64,000 bases of DNA from Picochlorum sp. 'celeri' (Eukaryota > Chlorophyta > Trebouxiophyceae), in assembly GCA_010909725.1 (NCBI GenBank), contig JAACMV010000005.1:868001-932000 (forward strand). Reading direction: 5' to 3'. Positions 49,072 through 62,523 of the stretch are shown here, piece by piece. The position numbers were made by a program, and so were the translations under genes. Position 1 is the first letter of the stretch. Every line of letters begins with the position of its first letter. The notes under the pieces are model-generated. The model saw nothing but the letters and a program-made list of their open reading frames with translations, was not told the DNA's origin and made no database searches.

Positions 49072-52000
49072 CTAACTGAAGAAGTACTGAGCGGATTTGA
49101 TGTCCTCAAGATCCAGATCACCGCGTGGAGGCAATGGCGGGAAGACGATATCTGGATGCTCTGTCTGCAATTCCTCCAACAATGTCTCCAAGAGTGGCTG
49201 CGAGTGGAGGTCGATGAACTTGGAGCGGAGAATGTAGTTCATCTGATCTACATGCCCAGCATGGGTCCAGAATGAGTCATGGACGCCGGCAAAGTCTAAA
49301 CCTTGTTCTCTACAGGCGACAGCAGTCATCATCATGTGTGATGAGTCAATGGAGTGGATGTAGTTTGGTGGGAAGGCTGTTCTCTGCCTCTGCTTCATCA
49401 CTGGTTTCGTATCGTGTTCTGTTGCAAGGACGAGACGCTGTAGTACTGTCCTCACATGCTGCTGTGTTTTCCTGCGATAGGGTTGGACCACAGGGAGACC
49501 CAGGGGAGTTGTCCAGGTGACAACCCGGCCTTCTTTGGCAATCAATCGTGCACATTCTGAGAGCCATTGCATAATGTGCTTGGCGCTCTGGAACATCTCG
49601 TGCAGACAATCGAGAGTCACCCTGGCAGAATAGCATGATACCTTGTACATGGCATGATTGTCCTCAAATCCTCTTTCCTTGAGTCTGTTCCCTATCTGGG
49701 CCCGTGCCCCGACAAATGTCACACCGTACACGCTCGTCATCACCGTCTGTTTGACCAGTTTCCTGTCGATTTCCGTAGATTTCAGTAGCGTCTGGGCTTC
49801 CGGAACTCCAGATGCTGCATCTGCCTCCACTCGTTTGGCAACAAGCCTGCTAATTTCACTGTACACATCTTGGGGGCGATCTACTGGGCACAAATTCACA
49901 GCCCAGCCTCCAGACAAGTCTCTTCCTAAAGCGGCATAATGTTGAAGTCCGTTGCAAGACCCATCCTGGTGGACTGGCAATCGCGATCTATAACTTGCTG
50001 GATCTCCACATGAGAGCGCCCTGTAGATGTCAAAGCATGTGGCCAAGAATTGGAAAGGAGCTTCTGCTTTGTACCATACCGCAGCACCTCCCCCTTTTGT
50101 GTGTGGATTTTCATTCGATTTGAGAAGGTGTATAATTGCTGAGCCAGCAGTGGATGCGTCTTCATTCAATTGAATACCAAGGTGATCTTCCAAGTCGGAC
50201 AAACTCCCATCATACGCAAATGGGTCTGTCGCATTATCAATGATTGAGCCAATATGTTCTTCTACCCACTTGACTCTGCCGTCCAGAGAAAGTTTGTCGA
50301 TTCCCTTGCCCCATAAATTTGCTGCTTGGATGTATAGCCATCGTAGGCCATTGGGACCCAGTGGCCTCTCCTCAGCAAATTGGAGCAGGCCTCTGCACAT
50401 ATCCGAGCCCAAATGATTCAAATGAGGGTGCATAGGGTATGCTCGTCCACGGAAATCCACATTGTGAGGAAAATAAAACCTCTCTTCATGAGAGAATTCT
50501 CGTGCTATTGCCAATTTGTATTCCATATCACACCGTAAGGAGTGCAATTCGTTATTCTTTTTCTTGGCTCTCTGAGCATTATAGTAACTGGCACTCACAT
50601 CAGCTTTTGGAATGCTGAAAATGTACATTGGCCCCTTCTCATTAATTCTACGTATCCGATATCCAGGTTTAAGAATAGGAGGCTCCACAACGTCTGCTCG
50701 TGCTGGGATTTCACATATTCCCCCACCCCAAGCCCATATGGCTTCGACAACCTTGTAGACATCCTGATTGATGGACCACGCAGTCTCCCCCAAAGCATTT
50801 AATGACTCATACACGGGTGAAAGCCCATCGCTGGTGCCCTCGATCATTGATTTATCTGCCTCCTCTAGCCTCTGTCGCTGCGCTGCCGACCCTCTGACTC
50901 TCATAACTGAGGTTCGCAATGTCAAATGACCGCCTAGATTTCTTCTCTGCCAGGGTACTGGAGGCACAACCATTGGCAAAAACTGAGGCATGAAAGCCTC
51001 TGTCATGTGGTGGGGTTTGATACGTTTCATCACTTCTTGATCAGCCATTAAAAGACCATACCGTTTCCACACCCCCTTGAGCTTTGGATCTGGACCTTGT
51101 TCAAGCTTGTGCCAAAATGCAGGTACGCTTTCAAGTCTTCCATCACGCCAGGAATCAATTTTGCAAGACTCTGTGAGGAGTTTGATAAGTATGACTCCTA
51201 CTTTTGCCTGCATTTCTGGCCTCCATTCAATGGAATCTGGTGCATCTGCCAATAAACGCTTTGCTCTCTGAGACATCACACGCATCTCTTGCTGAGATGA
51301 TGCCTCCTTCTGAAATTGCTTTGTGAGCTTTTGCACTCGCATCTCAACCGAAACATCCTTAAACCAATCCAAATGATCCAAAGGCAGCATTTCACCAAGA
51401 TCTCGCAACCTACTCCCAACATCCAACCACTGTTTCCACTCTTGACTAGTCAAATCACCTTGTTCCTCGTATGCTGCCCTCAAAGCCCTCCCTTCGTCAT
51501 AGATATTCCTAATCTCTTTTACCCTCATATTTCGTTCATGAATCTCTGCTTCTAATCTGTCAATATGATGCTGTGCCTCCACGGCCTTACCTATTGCTGT
51601 TGAAAGTTTTGTCATCCTTGTGGCTCCTGGCCGAGCCCCAACAGCATCGCCCTCATTCTCTGGAGACATGAAACAATTCATGGCCGCATGCATCGTTATC
51701 ACAGCCAATTGCTCTGGATCCAACTGTAACAGATATGGGCCATACACAGAACGATCAATTCCTGGGCTCCCATTTGCAATTTTATACTGCTCCTCCTGAA
51801 TTGCTTGCGCTAACGGCTTGAACCAGTTCACAAGCAACTTTCTGGCCGGCGGTAAAGTTGCAGCAGCGCCTCTCTTCATCGCTGCCTCTGCTTCGCGCTT
51901 GTATCGCGCTATCGCAGCATCCACAGCCCTAGTCTCCAATGTTATCTGACGCTGCCAATTCTTTTGTAGCCTCCTCCCTTTGGGCGTCCCATCCATGAGA

Positions 52001-52503
52001 GACTGATGATATTGAATCGCAGCCAGCGACCTTTGAATATGAGATGGATTGACATTTAAAGCTTTTCCGGACACGTGACCATCGTGAGCACTCTGCTGCT
52101 CATCAAACAAATGCAATCCTTCAAACTCAAATGGCTGCTGACCATCATCTTGAGGGTGCTCACCTTGATTTGAAGAAGCTTGCCGCAGTATCGTCGATAC
52201 GAGCTCTGAATACGCCCTTCGAGCAGCACTGTCATGATCGATGTCAAAAGATGATGATACGGGTTCCTTTGCCGTCTCCCCCGAGCTCACATCCACTTCC
52301 GCTGCCAAACACAAGTTCGCCTGCCTTAGAAGAGAAGAAAACCCGCGACAGCCCCTTACATCTGCCCCATAATCGTACACAAGGAAATCTTCCCGCACGA
52401 GTGCGGCCCCTTGTCGTCGCCCCTTGTCCCACAAAGGAAAAGAGGGCCTCGCCAACTCCCTCGCATGCCGCTGCGCACGTTTCACAAACGTACTAACAAA
52501 CAT
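49072..52503 (-). CDS. RPOT: Phage-type organellar RNA polymerase
   Basis: 1143 residues, single exon. The start is basic ([20 protein letters not shown]), fitting a mitochondrial presequence. The N-terminal domain is long and helical (residues about 150-600). The T7-like core follows: [20 protein letters not shown], motif A with the catalytic Asp in [19 protein letters not shown], motif B region [20 protein letters not shown], then [17 protein letters not shown] and motif C [19 protein letters not shown] with the second Asp. The end (SAQYFFS) matches the family's hydrophobic C-terminus. RPOT transcribes mitochondrial genes. I see no second copy in the window, and a plastid role cannot be ruled out from the presequence alone. 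Confidence 0.95.
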   Translation of the reverse strand: [1143 protein letters not shown]

Positions 52504-53322: not shown

Positions 53323-53943
53323 ATGAATTCTTCTGATATACCTGGGTCCAAGGTCGTGGATCATCGGGACACATCAGATGGAGTTGGAGCCTGTCCTTGG
53401 GATGCTTGCATGGATACCGCCGGGGGATCAGAACAGCAGGTCGACCTCTTGGTCGGTACTCAAGATTGCGGCTTGAATTTTCTGGACACGGAGCTCACCC
53501 CCTCAGGATCAGATGGCGTTCCTATACCATTCTTAAATAGTGGTTCTTCCCAACGGATGGAATCCGAGAGAATGAGGTATGTGCCTGTGAATGATTCTGC
53601 ATTACACCCGACAGGCCAATCAGTGGTCCCAGGCGGAGGGGCATCGTCTCACAGGAGGAGTACAAGGGGCCGTCCCGGAGTTCAATACGAATCAATGATT
53701 GATCCAAACCTGTCCGAGGAGGAGAAGAAGAAGACGAGAAGATTGTTATCAAACAGAGCATCAGCCAAACGAGCAAGGGAACGCAAGGCACAACTGATCC
53801 AGGAGATGAGCGAGCAGTTGAAGATGCACAGCGAGCGAGTCCATCAGCTTGAGACGATGATGAGAGATTTGGAATTAGAGAATAAAAAGTTACGACAGGT
53901 GGCATCCTTGCAACAACAGATACTGGCCAGGGATGGAGCATGA
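53323..53943 (+). CDS. bZIP transcription factor
   Basis: 206 residues from the ATG at 53323. The first 130 are polar with no known domain. The basic region KTRRLLSNRASAKRARERKA has the invariant Asn-x7-Arg spacing (NRASAKRAR). A leucine-zipper coiled coil follows with heptads ending at about residue 195 (IQEMSEQLKMHSERVHQLET, MMRDLELENKKL). The factor should dimerise and bind ACGT-core sites. The subgroup is not assigned. The zipper is short, about five heptads. No other regulator lies beside it. Confidence 0.92.
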   Translation: MNSSDIPGSKVVDHRDTSDGVGACPWDACMDTAGGSEQQVDLLVGTQDCGLNFLDTELTPSGSDGVPIPFLNSGSSQRMESERMRYVPVNDSALHPTGQSVVPGGGASSHRRSTRGRPGVQYESMIDPNLSEEEKKKTRRLLSNRASAKRARERKAQLIQEMSEQLKMHSERVHQLETMMRDLELENKKLRQVASLQQQILARDGA

Positions 53944-54495: not shown

Positions 54496-57400
54496 ATGTC
54501 GGAGAAAGGTGCAGCAGGATCGCATGTGCAGTCGAGGAGAGGAGGTGCGGAGAATTTCCGACATCAGATGATTGAGCAAATTATCAAATCTTCTGGGAAT
54601 GAAATCACATTTCTTCCGACTGGGCTTGGTCAAATGAAAGTGGTTGATGCGGTGATTGATACCATGCTCTCGAGGTTTCCTGAGAAGCATGTTGTGGTGT
54701 GTGTGCTGAGACCTGCTCAAGTGCTGTCTGGAGCTCAAAGGCTGAGGAGATCGTTGAAGGGCCGTGTGCCTGTGGGAGCGTACGTTGTGGGATTGTATGT
54801 CTCGTGCATATGTGCGTATTACTATAGAGTGGTGGTATTTTTTGTGCAGGTACTGCGGGGGAGACTTTCTGTACGATTTCCCCAAGGAGTTTGAGCAGAA
54901 TCGAGTCCTCGTTTTCACAGCGGGATTGCTGATGAGGCTCACAAAGCTGGGGGTGTACCGTTTGGATCAAAGTTCATTACTGGTTCTACATGATGCTTTC
55001 CATGCAGTTCGAAATCACCCGATGAATACCCTTGTCAGAGAGTACTACTGGAAACTTGCTGCCACAGAGGATTCTTCAGAGGAGGTTGTCAGGCCAAAGT
55101 TACTGGGAACAATGCTTCCGCAGACCCATACACTGAAACGGCCTTTCGATAAATTGAGGCAGGTTATTCGAAGATTATCGCATAGTGCTCAGGCTGGGAT
55201 TTGCTTACCAACAGGGCATGCACTTGAATCCCTTGCACAAAGAATTCACAGTTCCCGGCTGGCATTTCATGCTTATACTCCCTGCCAAGACGAATCTCTC
55301 CTGATTGGGTCGATTCAGAAACACTTACTTCATGTGTGGGATGTTTTGCACGCGCACAGTCAGAATCATTTCGGCAGGCTAATTCATTTCCCTACAGTGA
55401 ATGAAAGTGTGCAAGATGGAGAGAAGGAAGCGAGGGAGGATTTATACGTGAACCCAGTCCATCATGACTGGGAGCAGATCATGCTTATGGTAGATCATTC
55501 GATTGCTTTCACGGCAAATTTGCCAAAGTCTGGTGCTGCGCACTGCAGGAGTGATGCAGCACTCTTGGTGATGGAGCATGTGAGATCATGCATCAAAGCC
55601 CTTGTTGTATGCATGGGCGAAACAATGAAATCAGCAATCGATATATTCGTGTCCAGTATTGAAGAATTTAGAGAGAAATTAGGTGATTTATATGACTCGA
55701 AAGATGAGGATAGCCTGGAGACCAGAGTTGCCAAGGATGCTATTGCAGCACTGGAATCCTCTCCCTTGGCTCAGTCTCTGGGTGTGGATCTATGCGAGGA
55801 ACTAAAAGTCATTCTCTATGACAAATTTAAGGATTCTCTGAATAGGTCATCAAGGATGGACATGTGTGCATCATTATTGAAAGACTTGGGTTGCCCAGAC
55901 TTGGATAGGCCCGTGTATGTAGTTGTGCAGGATGGAGCCTCTGCTCGTTCTTTGATTGAATTTTTGAGCACACATTTTCCAAAAGATAATCTCGTACAAG
56001 TTGAGAATGTGCTGGAACCGGTGCCAGCTGAACTCCAGATGATGTATTTCATCACTGAAGAATATGTTGAGTTGACTGATAGACTGAATGAGATTAAACA
56101 GTCGAATGGCCACATTCTTTGGTATAGTCCAGCTAGTGTGATGCATGCAGCTGGATTTGATTATGACTCTACAGCATTGAATGTCCTTCGTGACATTTGT
56201 GGTACGGGGTCACCACAGCATACAGAGCAGAAAGAAGAAACTGCTGGTCCATGCTGTCATATTATTGCAACAAGAGAGCAATCCCTTGCGTGGATTGAAA
56301 TTTCTAAAGCAGATCAAATGCTTCTTGCAGCAGCAGAATTTGTACACTGTGGGGATGCTTCACTGGAAGAAAGCTTGGCACAACTTACTGTGCATGGAAA
56401 GTCAGCATTTTTCCATGATATGAGTCACCTGCAGTCGCTATCACTTGCTGTTCCGCCACCTTCGACGATTCTGCACACCCTGTGTTTGGGATTATCTGGA
56501 TATCCTCCAAAATTTAACCTGTATCAAGTACAAGTGGAAGACCCCCATTCAGGTAATGGACTGTGGCAGGCAACAGCCATTCTCCCAGAGGCATTGATCA
56601 TGACTGCTGAAGACTTGGGCCACGTACATAGCCGAAAACGAGGCTCCGAACAGGTATTTTCTTCTTCTTTGATACCTCGTGTATTTTACTTGTTCTATAT
56701 CGCTTTTTATTGATGCAGAATCCATTTGTTGGGCAGTTGGCTGCCTCATCTTCTGAGGCCAGGGATGCAGCTGCTGAGGCAGCACTGGTTTCCCTTGCGA
56801 ATTCAGGCACAATATCGGCATATTGGCAGACTAAATTGTTAGTGGAATCTATTATGAAGCGCCAGGAGCCATGGGAGACTGCGGGCCAAGGGTATGTGCG
56901 CCCAGGAGAGTTGATGGGGCAGGTTACTTCACCTTCCAACATTCCTCAATCTCCCTTCACAGGAGCGACAAATACACAGGATGTACGCCCTTCTGATACT
57001 GAGAGACGTATCTGTTCAATATGTGGCATCGTGACAACATCAGAAGCCCACCTGAAAGAGCATGAGAAAGGCAGGCGCCATTTGAAGAATTTGGAAAGGC
57101 TACAACGTCAGCAAGAAGCTGCTACAGTGCCCAGAGATTCGAGCGTGACACGCGAGAACGCCTCCAGTAGTTCTCAAGAGAATCTAGGCGGAATTGAATC
57201 GAACCATAGCCTCTCCAACACGATCGAGCAGCTCCCTTCGACCCTGTCAGATGCACTCATAAGGAGATCATCGTCACAATTCAGTAGGCAGAACTCGAAC
57301 GTGTACGAAGGATTTCCTTGTGTTAGAGTTGGAGATTGTTCTTTACCTAGTTCCATGGATTTGCGTGCATTTTTGGATGAAATGCAACTTGGGGAAGATG

Positions 57401-57960
57401 CAAAGTCCGAACCCAGCCCGAGGCCTCGCATCAAAACGCAGCCTAGTCCTCGCGATCCGAATACGAGAAGAAGTCCACGACAGGGGTTCTCAAATCAAAG
57501 CACTCCCAGTCACGGTTCAAGAAGAAATACCCCGAGACAGCTACATATGGGGGGCAATAATAATGCAGAGAAAGGCTTGACCCAAAGCCATGCCTTGCAA
57601 CAATCTGTTCAAGATCTGTACAAGTCTGGGTATAATCAGCAATATACCAGCTTGCACCCTATGGATCAAGCAATGTATAATGGAGGGTTCTTGTATCCAT
57701 ACAGTCCTGTCCACTATGTGCCCGTCATGCAGCATGCTCAAATGATGCCAACACAGTTTGTGAACCCAGTTGCAAGCCCAGGCCATGTCCCCCATCATAT
57801 GATGCCGGGCTACATGGGCATGGATATGATGAGTGGACAGGGTGAGATCCAGGGACCGGAGGTACAGCGGTCACCAAGAATGGAGCATTGGAAGCATCCT
57901 CGTGCTGTTGACAAAGCAAAGGGTCCGAGGATAGAGCAGGAGGAGAGCATTCCAGAGTGA
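54496..57960 (+). CDS. Dicer-related protein: degenerate helicase, Dicer dimerisation domain and dsRNA-type zinc finger, no RNase III
   Basis: Three exons: 54496-54794, 54850-56653 and 56719-57960; 1114 residues. Donors are GTATGT and GTATTT; acceptors are GTGCAG and ATGCAG. Residues 1-200 align with the Dicer helicase N-lobe: the join gives VGAYVVGLYCGGDFLYDF, then RVLVFTAGLLMRL and VLHDAFHAVRNHPMNTLVRE. The ATPase motifs are lost: motif I is TGLGQM (42-47, no GKT), motif II is HDAF (147-150) for DECH, and motif III is LLGTMLP for LGLTASP. The C-lobe is recognisable but lacks the QRxGRxxR box. At about 645-735 a Dicer-dimer (DUF283) domain ends SEARDAAAEAALVSLANSGT. A C2H2 finger of dsRNA/U1 type follows (C800, C803, H816, H822: CSICG...HEKGRRH), then a Ser/Arg-, Met- and Pro-rich tail. 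PAZ and RNase III are absent. It probably binds dsRNA or a partner without unwinding or cutting. Confidence 0.78.
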
Positions 57961-57998: not shown

Positions 57999-58967
57999 TT
58001 ACATAACATTTTGCGAATTTTCCATTGTCTTTGAAAATTCTGCGTGCGTTTTTGCATACTTTTGGAGGAGATATTCCCCAGACGTGATTGGTGGGTACTT
58101 TTGTGCCTCTCCCTCTGGCAAATACCCTGGCAGAGGTTGAATTTGAGCATCAAATTGTGGCTCAAAAAAGAAGGGGAATGAATATCTTTCCTTCTCATGC
58201 CCCGTCATCACCCTGTGAATCGTACTCTTGTACAACCCGCAGGTCCAATACTCGAGCATGTCCCCAATATTGATCACAAACCCATCTTGCAATGGATCAA
58301 TTGCCACCCATTCCCCCTTTTGAAAAATTTGCAGCCCTGGTTGTGGAGCATACAGTATGGTCAAGCATCCATAATCGGTATGTTTCCCAGCGCCATAGAT
58401 CCCTGCACGCTCATCCGAATCCACAGGTTGATACTTCAATGGTCGCAGCGTGATCATGGGCTCTTTGAAGTACGCGTTTAGGTATGACTTGTCAAATCCA
58501 AGCGACAAAGACACCAACTCCAACAAGCGATACCCAAGTTTTGTCAGCTCATCCATATATCTTTCTACAGCAGAGCGATACCCGGGTACATCTTCCTCGC
58601 CAGGCCATTGGTTCTGACCATCGAGGGGATTCCCTGGAGAAGACAGCCGAAAGTACAAGCCTTCGCGGGTATCCCCAACCATCGAGCCTTCTACGTCCAA
58701 TGTCTCCTCTCCTATCACAGTATACCCACAATTGCTTTTATTAACAGATATTTGCATCTTCCTCTCCAGCGGAAGGCTGAAAAACTGCTTTTGCACTGCG
58801 ACGTGTCTCGAAATGACTTCCTTCGGAACAGAATGTCCAGTTACAGCAAAGAACCCATGCTTTATGGCTGCGTCCCTTACAATCGCTGCTATTTCCTCAT
58901 CTGAACTCTTGGTATGACATAAATCTATAATAGGGACGTGCGTTTCAATAGATTGAGCCAAGTTCAT
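57999..58967 (-). CDS. 2-oxoglutarate/Fe(II)-dependent dioxygenase
   Basis: 322 residues, single exon. The DIOX_N part (HVPIIDLCHTKSSDEEIAAI, KHGFFAVTGHSVPKEVI) is followed by the jelly-roll with the iron ligands His-x-Asp in GKHTDYGCLTILYA and His in YKSTIHRVMTG. The Arg that binds 2-oxoglutarate is in KERYSFPFFFEP. The set matches the isopenicillin-N-synthase-like group common in plants, algae and fungi. The substrate cannot be told. It lies 98 bp after ATG7 on the same strand and converges on the Dicer-related gene, 38 bp between stops. Confidence 0.92.
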   Translation of the reverse strand: MNLAQSIETHVPIIDLCHTKSSDEEIAAIVRDAAIKHGFFAVTGHSVPKEVISRHVAVQKQFFSLPLERKMQISVNKSNCGYTVIGEETLDVEGSMVGDTREGLYFRLSSPGNPLDGQNQWPGEEDVPGYRSAVERYMDELTKLGYRLLELVSLSLGFDKSYLNAYFKEPMITLRPLKYQPVDSDERAGIYGAGKHTDYGCLTILYAPQPGLQIFQKGEWVAIDPLQDGFVINIGDMLEYWTCGLYKSTIHRVMTGHEKERYSFPFFFEPQFDAQIQPLPGYLPEGEAQKYPPITSGEYLLQKYAKTHAEFSKTMENSQNVM

Positions 58968-61205: not shown

Positions 61206-62270
61206 TCATACGGGACTGGCGCAGGTACATGGGTTTCCACGACACAACAGCATGGTGTTCAACAGCCATGCACAACTTTGAACAATCCAGGAACCCAAAG
61301 ACACCCACCCCATGATTTCGACTGCAATCTTCCATGAAGTAGTGCTGACTGCGGTTGTCTGTGCGCCAGTAAAGATGATTGAGAATGCCAACATCCAGAC
61401 ACACATGCCTAGGAGGCACACAAATCCTGTGACCCAGAGACCTCGCGGCGCTGGTGAACGGCCTAATGCCAAGATTAGGAGCAAACCCATACTTGAAGCT
61501 ATATTGACAGCCCCGACAGCATATGTGTACGCGCACGCATACGGTTTGGTCAGTGCACATTCTGCATCACGACTGAGGTGGATTGCCACGATGGATATCA
61601 TGGACACGCTCGCGATAGTCTGGACCATGCAGCACAACAGGTGTGTATACCATACTGCTGCAGCCACATGTTTGGATAGAATTACTGCATGCGTGGTACT
61701 ACGACCACGTGGAGAGCTTTGCACAAGCACACCCAGCATACAACACCACATGCAGGAATGCAGAGAGACCTGGATGTTCCTCTTTGCCATGTTGAGTTTT
61801 GCATTCCACGCGTAGTCATAGGATATGAGGAATCGAGCTTCCCACCTCTCGGCCTGTCCTTTATCCCGCACATACCTTATTCTTCTCCACAACAAAAGCC
61901 TCTGCTTGCCAACCACCTCATCAAAATACTCTCGCAACGAACTCCCGTCTTTTCCGTAATCCCGATGTCTGTTCTGTACATTTGTACTCTCTCCAACATA
62001 GACTGGAATCTTGGCGTGAGGACATGCCCGCGCCGACACAGCAAATTCATATACTGCTGCATGGGATTTGGGTGCAGAGCCAGCGTGAACCTTCCACTGC
62101 TGCTCCACGCCCCCACCATGATACTCTGGCACAATAAACAGCTCCCAATCGCATCCTTTCCAGAATCTCTCGTACATGGTCAGCATCCCTGGCTCTGTAA
62201 ACCCTTCTCGTGCCACTGGTAGGTCGTCGTACAGGCACAGCTGGGTCGCCGCTACCCCACAGCATGCCAT
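61206..62270 (-). CDS. GIY-YIG domain fused to a four-segment membrane domain
   Basis: 354 residues from the ATG at 62270; the upstream in-frame TTG is not used. Residues about 70-160 look like a GIY-YIG fold: AAVYEF (73-76 for the first motif), KIPVYVGES (91-95 for the second), the Arg pair in NRHRDYG (101-103), a helix SSLREYFDEVV, LLLWRRIRYV and the acidic helix AERWEARFLIS with Glu at 141/144, then YDYAWN. Four hydrophobic segments follow at about 204-230, 247-270, 278-303 and 315-342, with short loops, and a Cys-rich end. GIY-YIG domains are usually nucleases. Anchoring one in a membrane is unusual, and the substrate is unknown. I read through 170-204 without a break, so the fusion is in one frame. 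Confidence 0.72.
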   Translation of the reverse strand: MACCGVAATQLCLYDDLPVAREGFTEPGMLTMYERFWKGCDWELFIVPEYHGGGVEQQWKVHAGSAPKSHAAVYEFAVSARACPHAKIPVYVGESTNVQNRHRDYGKDGSSLREYFDEVVGKQRLLLWRRIRYVRDKGQAERWEARFLISYDYAWNAKLNMAKRNIQVSLHSCMWCCMLGVLVQSSPRGRSTTHAVILSKHVAAAVWYTHLLCCMVQTIASVSMISIVAIHLSRDAECALTKPYACAYTYAVGAVNIASSMGLLLILALGRSPAPRGLWVTGFVCLLGMCVWMLAFSIIFTGAQTTAVSTTSWKIAVEIMGWVSLGSWIVQSCAWLLNTMLLCRGNPCTCASPV

Positions 62271-62523
62271 CTCGGACAAAGTAAAACCGATTAGACAATC
62301 ACAGGCGTGAAATCGATAATAATAAATATAAATATCTATTTTATAACTGGTGATGGTGGTATCATAGCTTGATACATCGACACAGATACTGGCTATTCAA
62401 AAGTGTCCACTTTTCAAAAACAGGTACAATCCTCTTATACTTGCATGGTACCATACATACATGTAATTTTACCAATACACTACTTAAAAAGAGAGTACCT
62501 ATCTCTTCGCTGTGAGGATCATC

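Follow-up and report, generated by a model that had tools for sequence, protein, structure and literature searches.

What is left of Dicer in a green alga that appears to have lost classical RNAi? The question is raised by a gene in the window, the whole stretch of 64,000 nucleotides from Picochlorum sp. 'celeri' that was analysed, which an initial annotation made from the letters alone described as a Dicer-derived pseudohelicase with a dsRNA-type zinc finger and no nuclease. The gene is real and intact. Its three exons lie on the + strand in a single open frame (Table 1), an allele is present on contig C20, and there is no further match in the genome, which has 27,412,692 bases in 30 contigs and in which matches are mostly near-identical pairs. 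The published phased diploid assembly of P. celeri comprises 15 scaffolds for each of two sets, 27.43 Mb in all (PMC7225527).

Table 1. The pseudohelicase gene and its parts, by position in the window.
Feature	Position	Strand	Remarks
Exon 1 (revised): N terminus and start of helicase N-lobe	54496..54779	+	
Altered P-loop FLPTGLGQM	54610-54636	+	exon 1
RPAQVLSGAQRL, place of motif Ia	54709-54744	+	exon 1
Intron 1 (revised donor GTACGT, acceptor GTGCAG; initial donor 54795)	54780..54849	+	residues of 54780-54794 absent in 19 of 23 matched relatives
Exon 2: remainder of N-lobe, Hel2i-like helical insert, C-lobe, first half of DUF283/dsRBD-like domain	54850..56653	+	
VLVFTAGLLMRLTK, N-lobe	54905-54946	+	exon 2
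LHDAF and NHPMNTLVREYYWK, N-lobe	54977-55054	+	exon 2
NHFGRLIHF, family-specific, in Hel2i-like insert with HHDW elements	55364-55390	+	exon 2
HAAGFDYDS at the place of QRxGR, C-lobe	56114-56170	+	exon 2
Intron 2	56654..56718	+	P0003 has no insert there
Exon 3: remaining half of the domain (to 56826), zinc finger, conserved motif within a tail predicted to be disordered, stop	56719..57960	+	
Dicer_dimer (DUF283)/dsRBD-like domain, split by intron 2	56462..56826	+	model of relatives and profiles
C2H2 zinc finger, zf-met/JAZ (dsRNA/U1) type, C-x2-C-x12-H-x5-H	57013..57081	+	Pfam zf-met 2e-6
Conserved tail motif LPSTLSDALIRRSSS ... YEGFPCVRVGDCSLPSSMDLRAFLDEMQ	57232..57387	+	no other copy in the genome besides the allele

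With the joins originally proposed (introns 54795-54849 and 56654-56718) the protein has 1114 aa, and our searches were run with this version. The open frame and the second join stand, the latter because P0003, the protein of Picochlorum SENEW3 (47% identical to the window protein), continues through this point with no insert, but the first join is probably five codons off. An alternative donor for intron 1, GTACGT at 54780, leaves the phase unchanged and yields a protein of 1109 aa that reads VGAYCGGDF. When 23 relatives were matched for this pattern, 19 ran directly into the CGG block without VVGLY, and the remaining four (P0001, P0002, P0012, and P0014), which read CRYCGG, look like unspliced frames. 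Because 19 of 23 relatives are without these five residues, VVGLY in the block GAYVVGLYCGG, which had been cited whole as a Dicer-like feature, is probably intron-derived, and it is the CGG part that is found in relatives. The relatives thus make 54780 the most likely start of intron 1 and 1109 aa, rather than 1114, the corrected length of the protein.

A nuclease on an adjoining exon, which had been raised as a possible objection, is ruled out. Downstream, a convergent 2OG-Fe(II) oxygenase gene on the opposite strand has its stop at 57999, and there is no space for a 3' exon because only 38 bases separate it from the stop at 57960. Upstream, a bZIP-like ORF (E 0.00038, under the Pfam cut-off) ends at 53943, and the RNase III loci of this genome are on other contigs. 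The window also encodes, both on the - strand, a phage-type RNA polymerase of 1143 aa in one open frame (49072-52503) and a GIY-YIG domain protein (Pfam 8.6e-12, 61206-62279) that adjoins ATG7.

The N-lobe had been called Dicer-like, and both a profile of the family and the comparison of a predicted structure rank Dicer helicases first. Against sequences in the PDB, the family profile matched DCL1 (4.1e-16), the ancestral Dicer AncD1D2 (2.8e-13) and DCL3 (6e-8), and more weakly Dicer-2 (0.007), LGP2 (0.008), and Hef (0.58). It is in the N-lobe that these helicase matches have their best stretches, and there the NHPMNTLVREYYWK block aligns with the DCL1 block after motif II; the C-lobe gave no significant match of its own in this search. 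Single proteins pointed the same way, the window protein matching DCL1 at 4.5e-8, and P0028, a relative of 2455 aa from Parachlorella kessleri, matching AncD1D2 at 2.7e-7 and DCL1 at 9.4e-6.

An AlphaFold model of P0003 has a mean pLDDT of 67.5 and a pTM of 0.65; of its 1103 residues, 642 reach a pLDDT of at least 70 and 339 fall below 50. When it was compared with the PDB using Foldseek, the best 50 of 404 matches (E≤0.001) were headed by the ancestral Dicer helicase at ranks 1-3 (1.5e-19 to 2e-18), with RIG-I-like proteins from 4.5e-18, a small lead for Dicer. Within the same best 50, alignments span 766-780 columns in the five Dicer rows and 599-676 in the remaining 45, and the fold neighbours beside Dicer are RIG-I, MDA5, LGP2, and DRH-1. 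For rank 1 the TM-score by query is 0.24 and the rmsd 23.9; because TM-scores of this model are low, domain placement is unmatched. A better model was obtained for the relative P0013 (pLDDT 79.8, pTM 0.77). The protein thus has a Dicer-type helicase domain (N-lobe, Hel2i, and C-lobe), for which the profile evidence is in the N-lobe only and the fold is predicted. A viral structure library gave assorted helicases at 2.2e-9 and worse, with no lead among them, and a defence library, scanned with three of the 31 relatives, gave one weak match to HamB (0.031).

Every ATPase motif is altered, as had been noticed at the outset, and this extends to all members of the family with letters at the places concerned. 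In the window protein, FLPTGLGQM stands for the P-loop and LHDAF for DECH, with MLPQ at the place of TAS and HAAGFDYDS at that of QRxGR; we assigned the TAS and QRxGR places by eye, since the C-lobe is without sequence match to any Dicer. Counting only members with letters at each place, the lysine of motif I is missing in 20/20, motif II lacks DE in 25/25 (24 have HDAF or HDAI, and Parachlorella has LDAF), TAS is missing in 30/30, and QRxGR in 29/29. Working ATPase motifs, a Dicer trait, are therefore lacking (motifs I, II, III, and VI), and the protein has the features of a pseudohelicase, that is, a helicase fold, here predicted, with the catalytic residues gone. General Pfam helicase models barely register across the 31 members, with DEAD matching two (best 0.011) and ResIII one (0.07). 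Since the losses are common to these lineages, including Parachlorella, the inactive form is old and predates their split. It may thus have originated as a paralogue while a functional Dicer was still present, rather than as what the loss of classical RNAi left behind, as had been proposed.

Other places in the helicase part are conserved. NHPMN is retained in 24 of 25 members, with NNPMN in the other one, and the top conserved 15-residue windows among 13 chosen representatives are VLVFTAGLLMRQTKL (0.90), AFHAVRNHPMNTLMR (the NHPMN window, 0.88), and RPFDKLRQIVRKLSH (0.83). We take the VLVFTAGLLMRQTKL window to be the place of the RNA-contacting motif Ib/Ic of helicases, and conservation of this RNA-side place may be structural. 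The blocks NHFGRLIHF, HHDW, and PFDKLRQ are also conserved, with no Dicer counterpart seen.

The domain that follows the C-lobe had been named DUF283. In the P0013 model it consists of a helix (560-572), three strands (577-583, 587-594, and 604-610), and a second helix (613-630). This alpha-beta-beta-beta-alpha arrangement is the layout of both dsRBD and DUF283. A profile of the domain from 11 members scored highest in the PDB against the C-terminal dsRBD region of DCL4 (0.007) rather than against a DUF283, followed by full-length DCL4 in the same region (0.056) and TARBP2 (0.16). Pfam Dicer_dimer matched three of the 11 domain pieces (best 0.017), and P0028 at 0.0013, all under the cut-off. 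Layout and weak profile matches together point to a Dicer-type domain of dsRBD fold, which by its position is probably DUF283 but may be another Dicer-type dsRBD. Human DUF283 is reported to bind single-stranded nucleic acids and to anneal RNA (PMC4820750). DUF283 is also reported to contact protein partners, and dsRNA binding is given as none for human Dicer DUF283 and as a trace for that of DCL4 in the available text of the same source (PMC8395393).

The C2H2 finger of dsRNA/U1 type was recognised correctly. It is the sole Pfam match above cut-off in the window protein (zf-met, 28.4 bits for a cut-off of 21.2), and the C-x2-C-x12-H-x5-H pattern is present in 17 of the 31 relatives, that is, in all that reach that far, the other 14 ending earlier. 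The family profile of this region matched dsRBP-ZFa in the PDB (0.00095), as well as the spliceosomal proteins SNU23/ZMAT2 (0.0026) and Prp11 (0.026), and because of the latter the finger may serve an RNP. In the genome, zf-met is found in five genes (ten matches), including the pseudohelicase gene. As for the tail, strict patterns found LPSxLSD-type text in 12, RRxSS in nine, FPCVRVGD-type in 10, and LPSSMDL-type in 10 of the 17 finger-bearing relatives. The last three texts are missing from P0013, P0015, P0017, P0018, P0019, and P0020, some of whose models perhaps stop just past the finger.

The proposal of a conserved non-catalytic factor has gained support in its conservation part. The family comprises 31 retrieved proteins, 26 from a first search and five new among the 28 of a second; scoring in each of these was limited to some 8000 candidates with the most words in common, so the family may be larger. 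A third search, with residues 55-310 of P0009, returned 11 proteins, none of them new and no true Dicer among them. In a quick tree built from the window protein and 29 relatives (30 rows) there are two deep groups, and the placement of P0021 and P0028, which have long branches, is unsure. P0028 carries additional zf-met/JAZ fingers (three and two passing stretches) and long low-complexity inserts within its helicase part. As had been stated for the window protein, PAZ and RNase III are missing: neither has a Pfam match in it or in any of the 31 members. Searches of an open-access library yielded no description of this protein or family, and no mention of dicer or argonaute was found in the SENEW3 genome paper (PMC11092101).

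Comparison of the two alleles, over the 1114-aa reading, shows differences at 15 of 3345 bases, nine synonymous and six replacement, with no stop (pN/pS 0.19, binomial P 0.0019). Among neighbouring genes, synonymous and replacement differences number 26 and eight for the phage-type RNA polymerase (0.09), 16 and five for ATG7 (0.09), and one and two for the 2OG oxygenase (0.56), too few changes in the last case. The alleles therefore indicate purifying selection, where relaxed selection had been named as a sign of decay, and a constraint that is less strong than in two of the three neighbouring genes. A pseudogene is disfavoured by the frame being intact in both alleles and by the few replacement changes.

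What RNAi machinery does the genome encode? The genome was searched for domains exon by exon, together with control genomes, and no core RNAi gene was detected. Piwi had no match, although only 1/14 control genomes matched. RdRP, PAZ, and Dicer_dimer had none either, and since no control genome matched, these absences are weaker; the Dicer_dimer search missed even the pseudohelicase gene's own domain, so a diverged domain escapes it. The dsrm domain (PF00035) also had no match, though nine control genomes did, an unusual absence if real. RNase III is present in three genes (six matches, two haplotypes), with a single domain match each. For two of these pairs one ORF each was scanned with Pfam, and the third is a family match on an open frame of 118 aa. 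Of the three, the ORF on contig C11 has no dsrm match; the other two single-domain genes are those at L017:1432-2205 (contig C23) and at L019 (contig C18), the latter a short frame that we would guess to be Mini-III-like. From these searches, classical RNAi in this alga appears lost.

Reports on other green algae are mixed. Medakamo hakoo is described as lacking Dicer and Argonaute (PMC9871001), as is Helicosporidium in a source that credits Chlorella and Coccomyxa with both (PMC4014436); for Coccomyxa, another source gives Argonautes and RdRP as present and Dicer as not (PMC3446292). Prototheca wickerhamii is reported to have both Dicer and Argonaute (PMC7941945). Dicer-like genes without Argonaute are already known, since the algal endosymbionts of Paramecium bursaria are reported to have a Dicer homologue and no Argonaute (PMC8059543).

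As judged by sequence and predicted structure, the protein is a conserved derivative of Dicer that has lost its ATPase motifs, has no nuclease, and carries a dsRNA-type finger. An origin from another SF2 helicase, Hef/FANCM or RIG-I-like, is a question apart from function, and we hold it to be improbable. The NCBIfam Hef model does match the N-lobe of P0003, at 1.6e-8, and RIG-I-like structures score near Dicer among the best 50 of 404 Foldseek matches, so the test for a better match outside Dicer came out mostly, not wholly, in favour of Dicer. The family profile gives DCL1 an E-value some fifteen orders of magnitude below that of Hef, and both the NHP block and the Dicer-type domain after the C-lobe speak for Dicer. 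That the gene is a decaying relic of a lost RNAi pathway would fit the genome being without Piwi, PAZ, and RdRP matches, but is extremely improbable given a frame intact in both alleles, the signs of purifying selection, and the wide conservation of a form that was already ATPase-dead.

As to function, we lean towards an ATP-independent clamp or scaffold derived from Dicer, whose binding of RNA and partners we infer, and consider it somewhat probable. The N-terminal half of Dicer (N-lobe, Hel2i, C-lobe, and DUF283/dsRBD-like domain) is kept as a fold; the residues that bind and hydrolyse ATP have gone, as have PAZ and RNase III, and the finger and tail motif are additions. The helicase fold and finger would grip RNA, either structured or double-stranded, or else an RNP, and the DUF283-like domain and tail motif would hold partner proteins. 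More tentatively, the protein may be a stand-alone, ATP-independent dsRNA receptor, made in a Trebouxiophycean lineage from the RNA-recognition half of Dicer, which would act in an RNAi-independent dsRNA response with neither slicer nor Argonaute and engage partners via the finger and tail motif; we find this rather doubtful. We are equally doubtful of a protein-only scaffold, in which the helicase fold would no longer contact RNA and would form the core around which a complex is built, as Utp25 does for the SSU processome. NHFGRLIHF, HHDW, PFDKLRQ, and the tail motif do resemble protein-binding sites, the reported partner contacts of DUF283 (PMC8395393) would suit it, and there is the precedent of Utp25, said to be essential with dispensable DEAD-box motifs (PMC9539457). 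On the other hand, a dsRNA-type finger is kept in 17/17 relatives reaching it. The top conserved window also argues against a protein-only role, lying at what we take to be the RNA-contact place of helicases. A dsRNA sensor or antiviral factor that does not slice and feeds another nuclease or a stress response, like LGP2 or DRH-1, is unlikely. RIG-I, MDA5, LGP2, and DRH-1 are the fold neighbours beside Dicer in the best 50 of 404 matches, and no dsrm domain was found in the genome, but LGP2, MDA5, and RIG-I retain their ATPase motifs, there is no match to a CARD or RIG-I C-terminal domain at E≤1, and replacement differences between the alleles are few.

The protein differs from each known system that it resembles. 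It shares with Dicer/DCL proteins (DCL1, DCL3, DCL4, and AncD1D2) the N-lobe sequence, the predicted Hel2i and C-lobe fold, and the DUF283/dsRBD-like domain, in the same order, but has no ATPase motifs, PAZ, or RNase III, and carries a zf-met finger and tail motif. RIG-I-like proteins (RIG-I, MDA5, LGP2, and C. elegans DRH-1) are of the same helicase class by fold and likewise have no nuclease, whereas the pseudohelicase has no match to a CARD or C-terminal domain (Pfam, E≤1), no ATPase motifs, and a Dicer-type second domain and finger. Utp25/Def is also an SF2-fold pseudohelicase, with dispensable ATPase motifs, but is DEAD-box-like rather than Dicer-like (PMC9539457). Non-canonical fungal Dicers are also Dicer derivatives in which certain domains are not detected, namely PAZ, helicase, or dsRBD; none without RNase III was found in the available text of that source (PMC12663654).

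One practical consequence is that the source name of P0003, 'endoribonuclease dicer', could mislead annotators into assuming a working Dicer in Picochlorum. For the biology of this lineage, the gene suggests which part of Dicer can persist once classical RNAi is apparently lost, namely the RNA-recognition half with neither motor nor scissors, which is still constrained although the genome is streamlined, at about 14 Mb for each haploid set. Whether the Dicer helicase/DUF283 module has a role beyond feeding a nuclease becomes a testable question.
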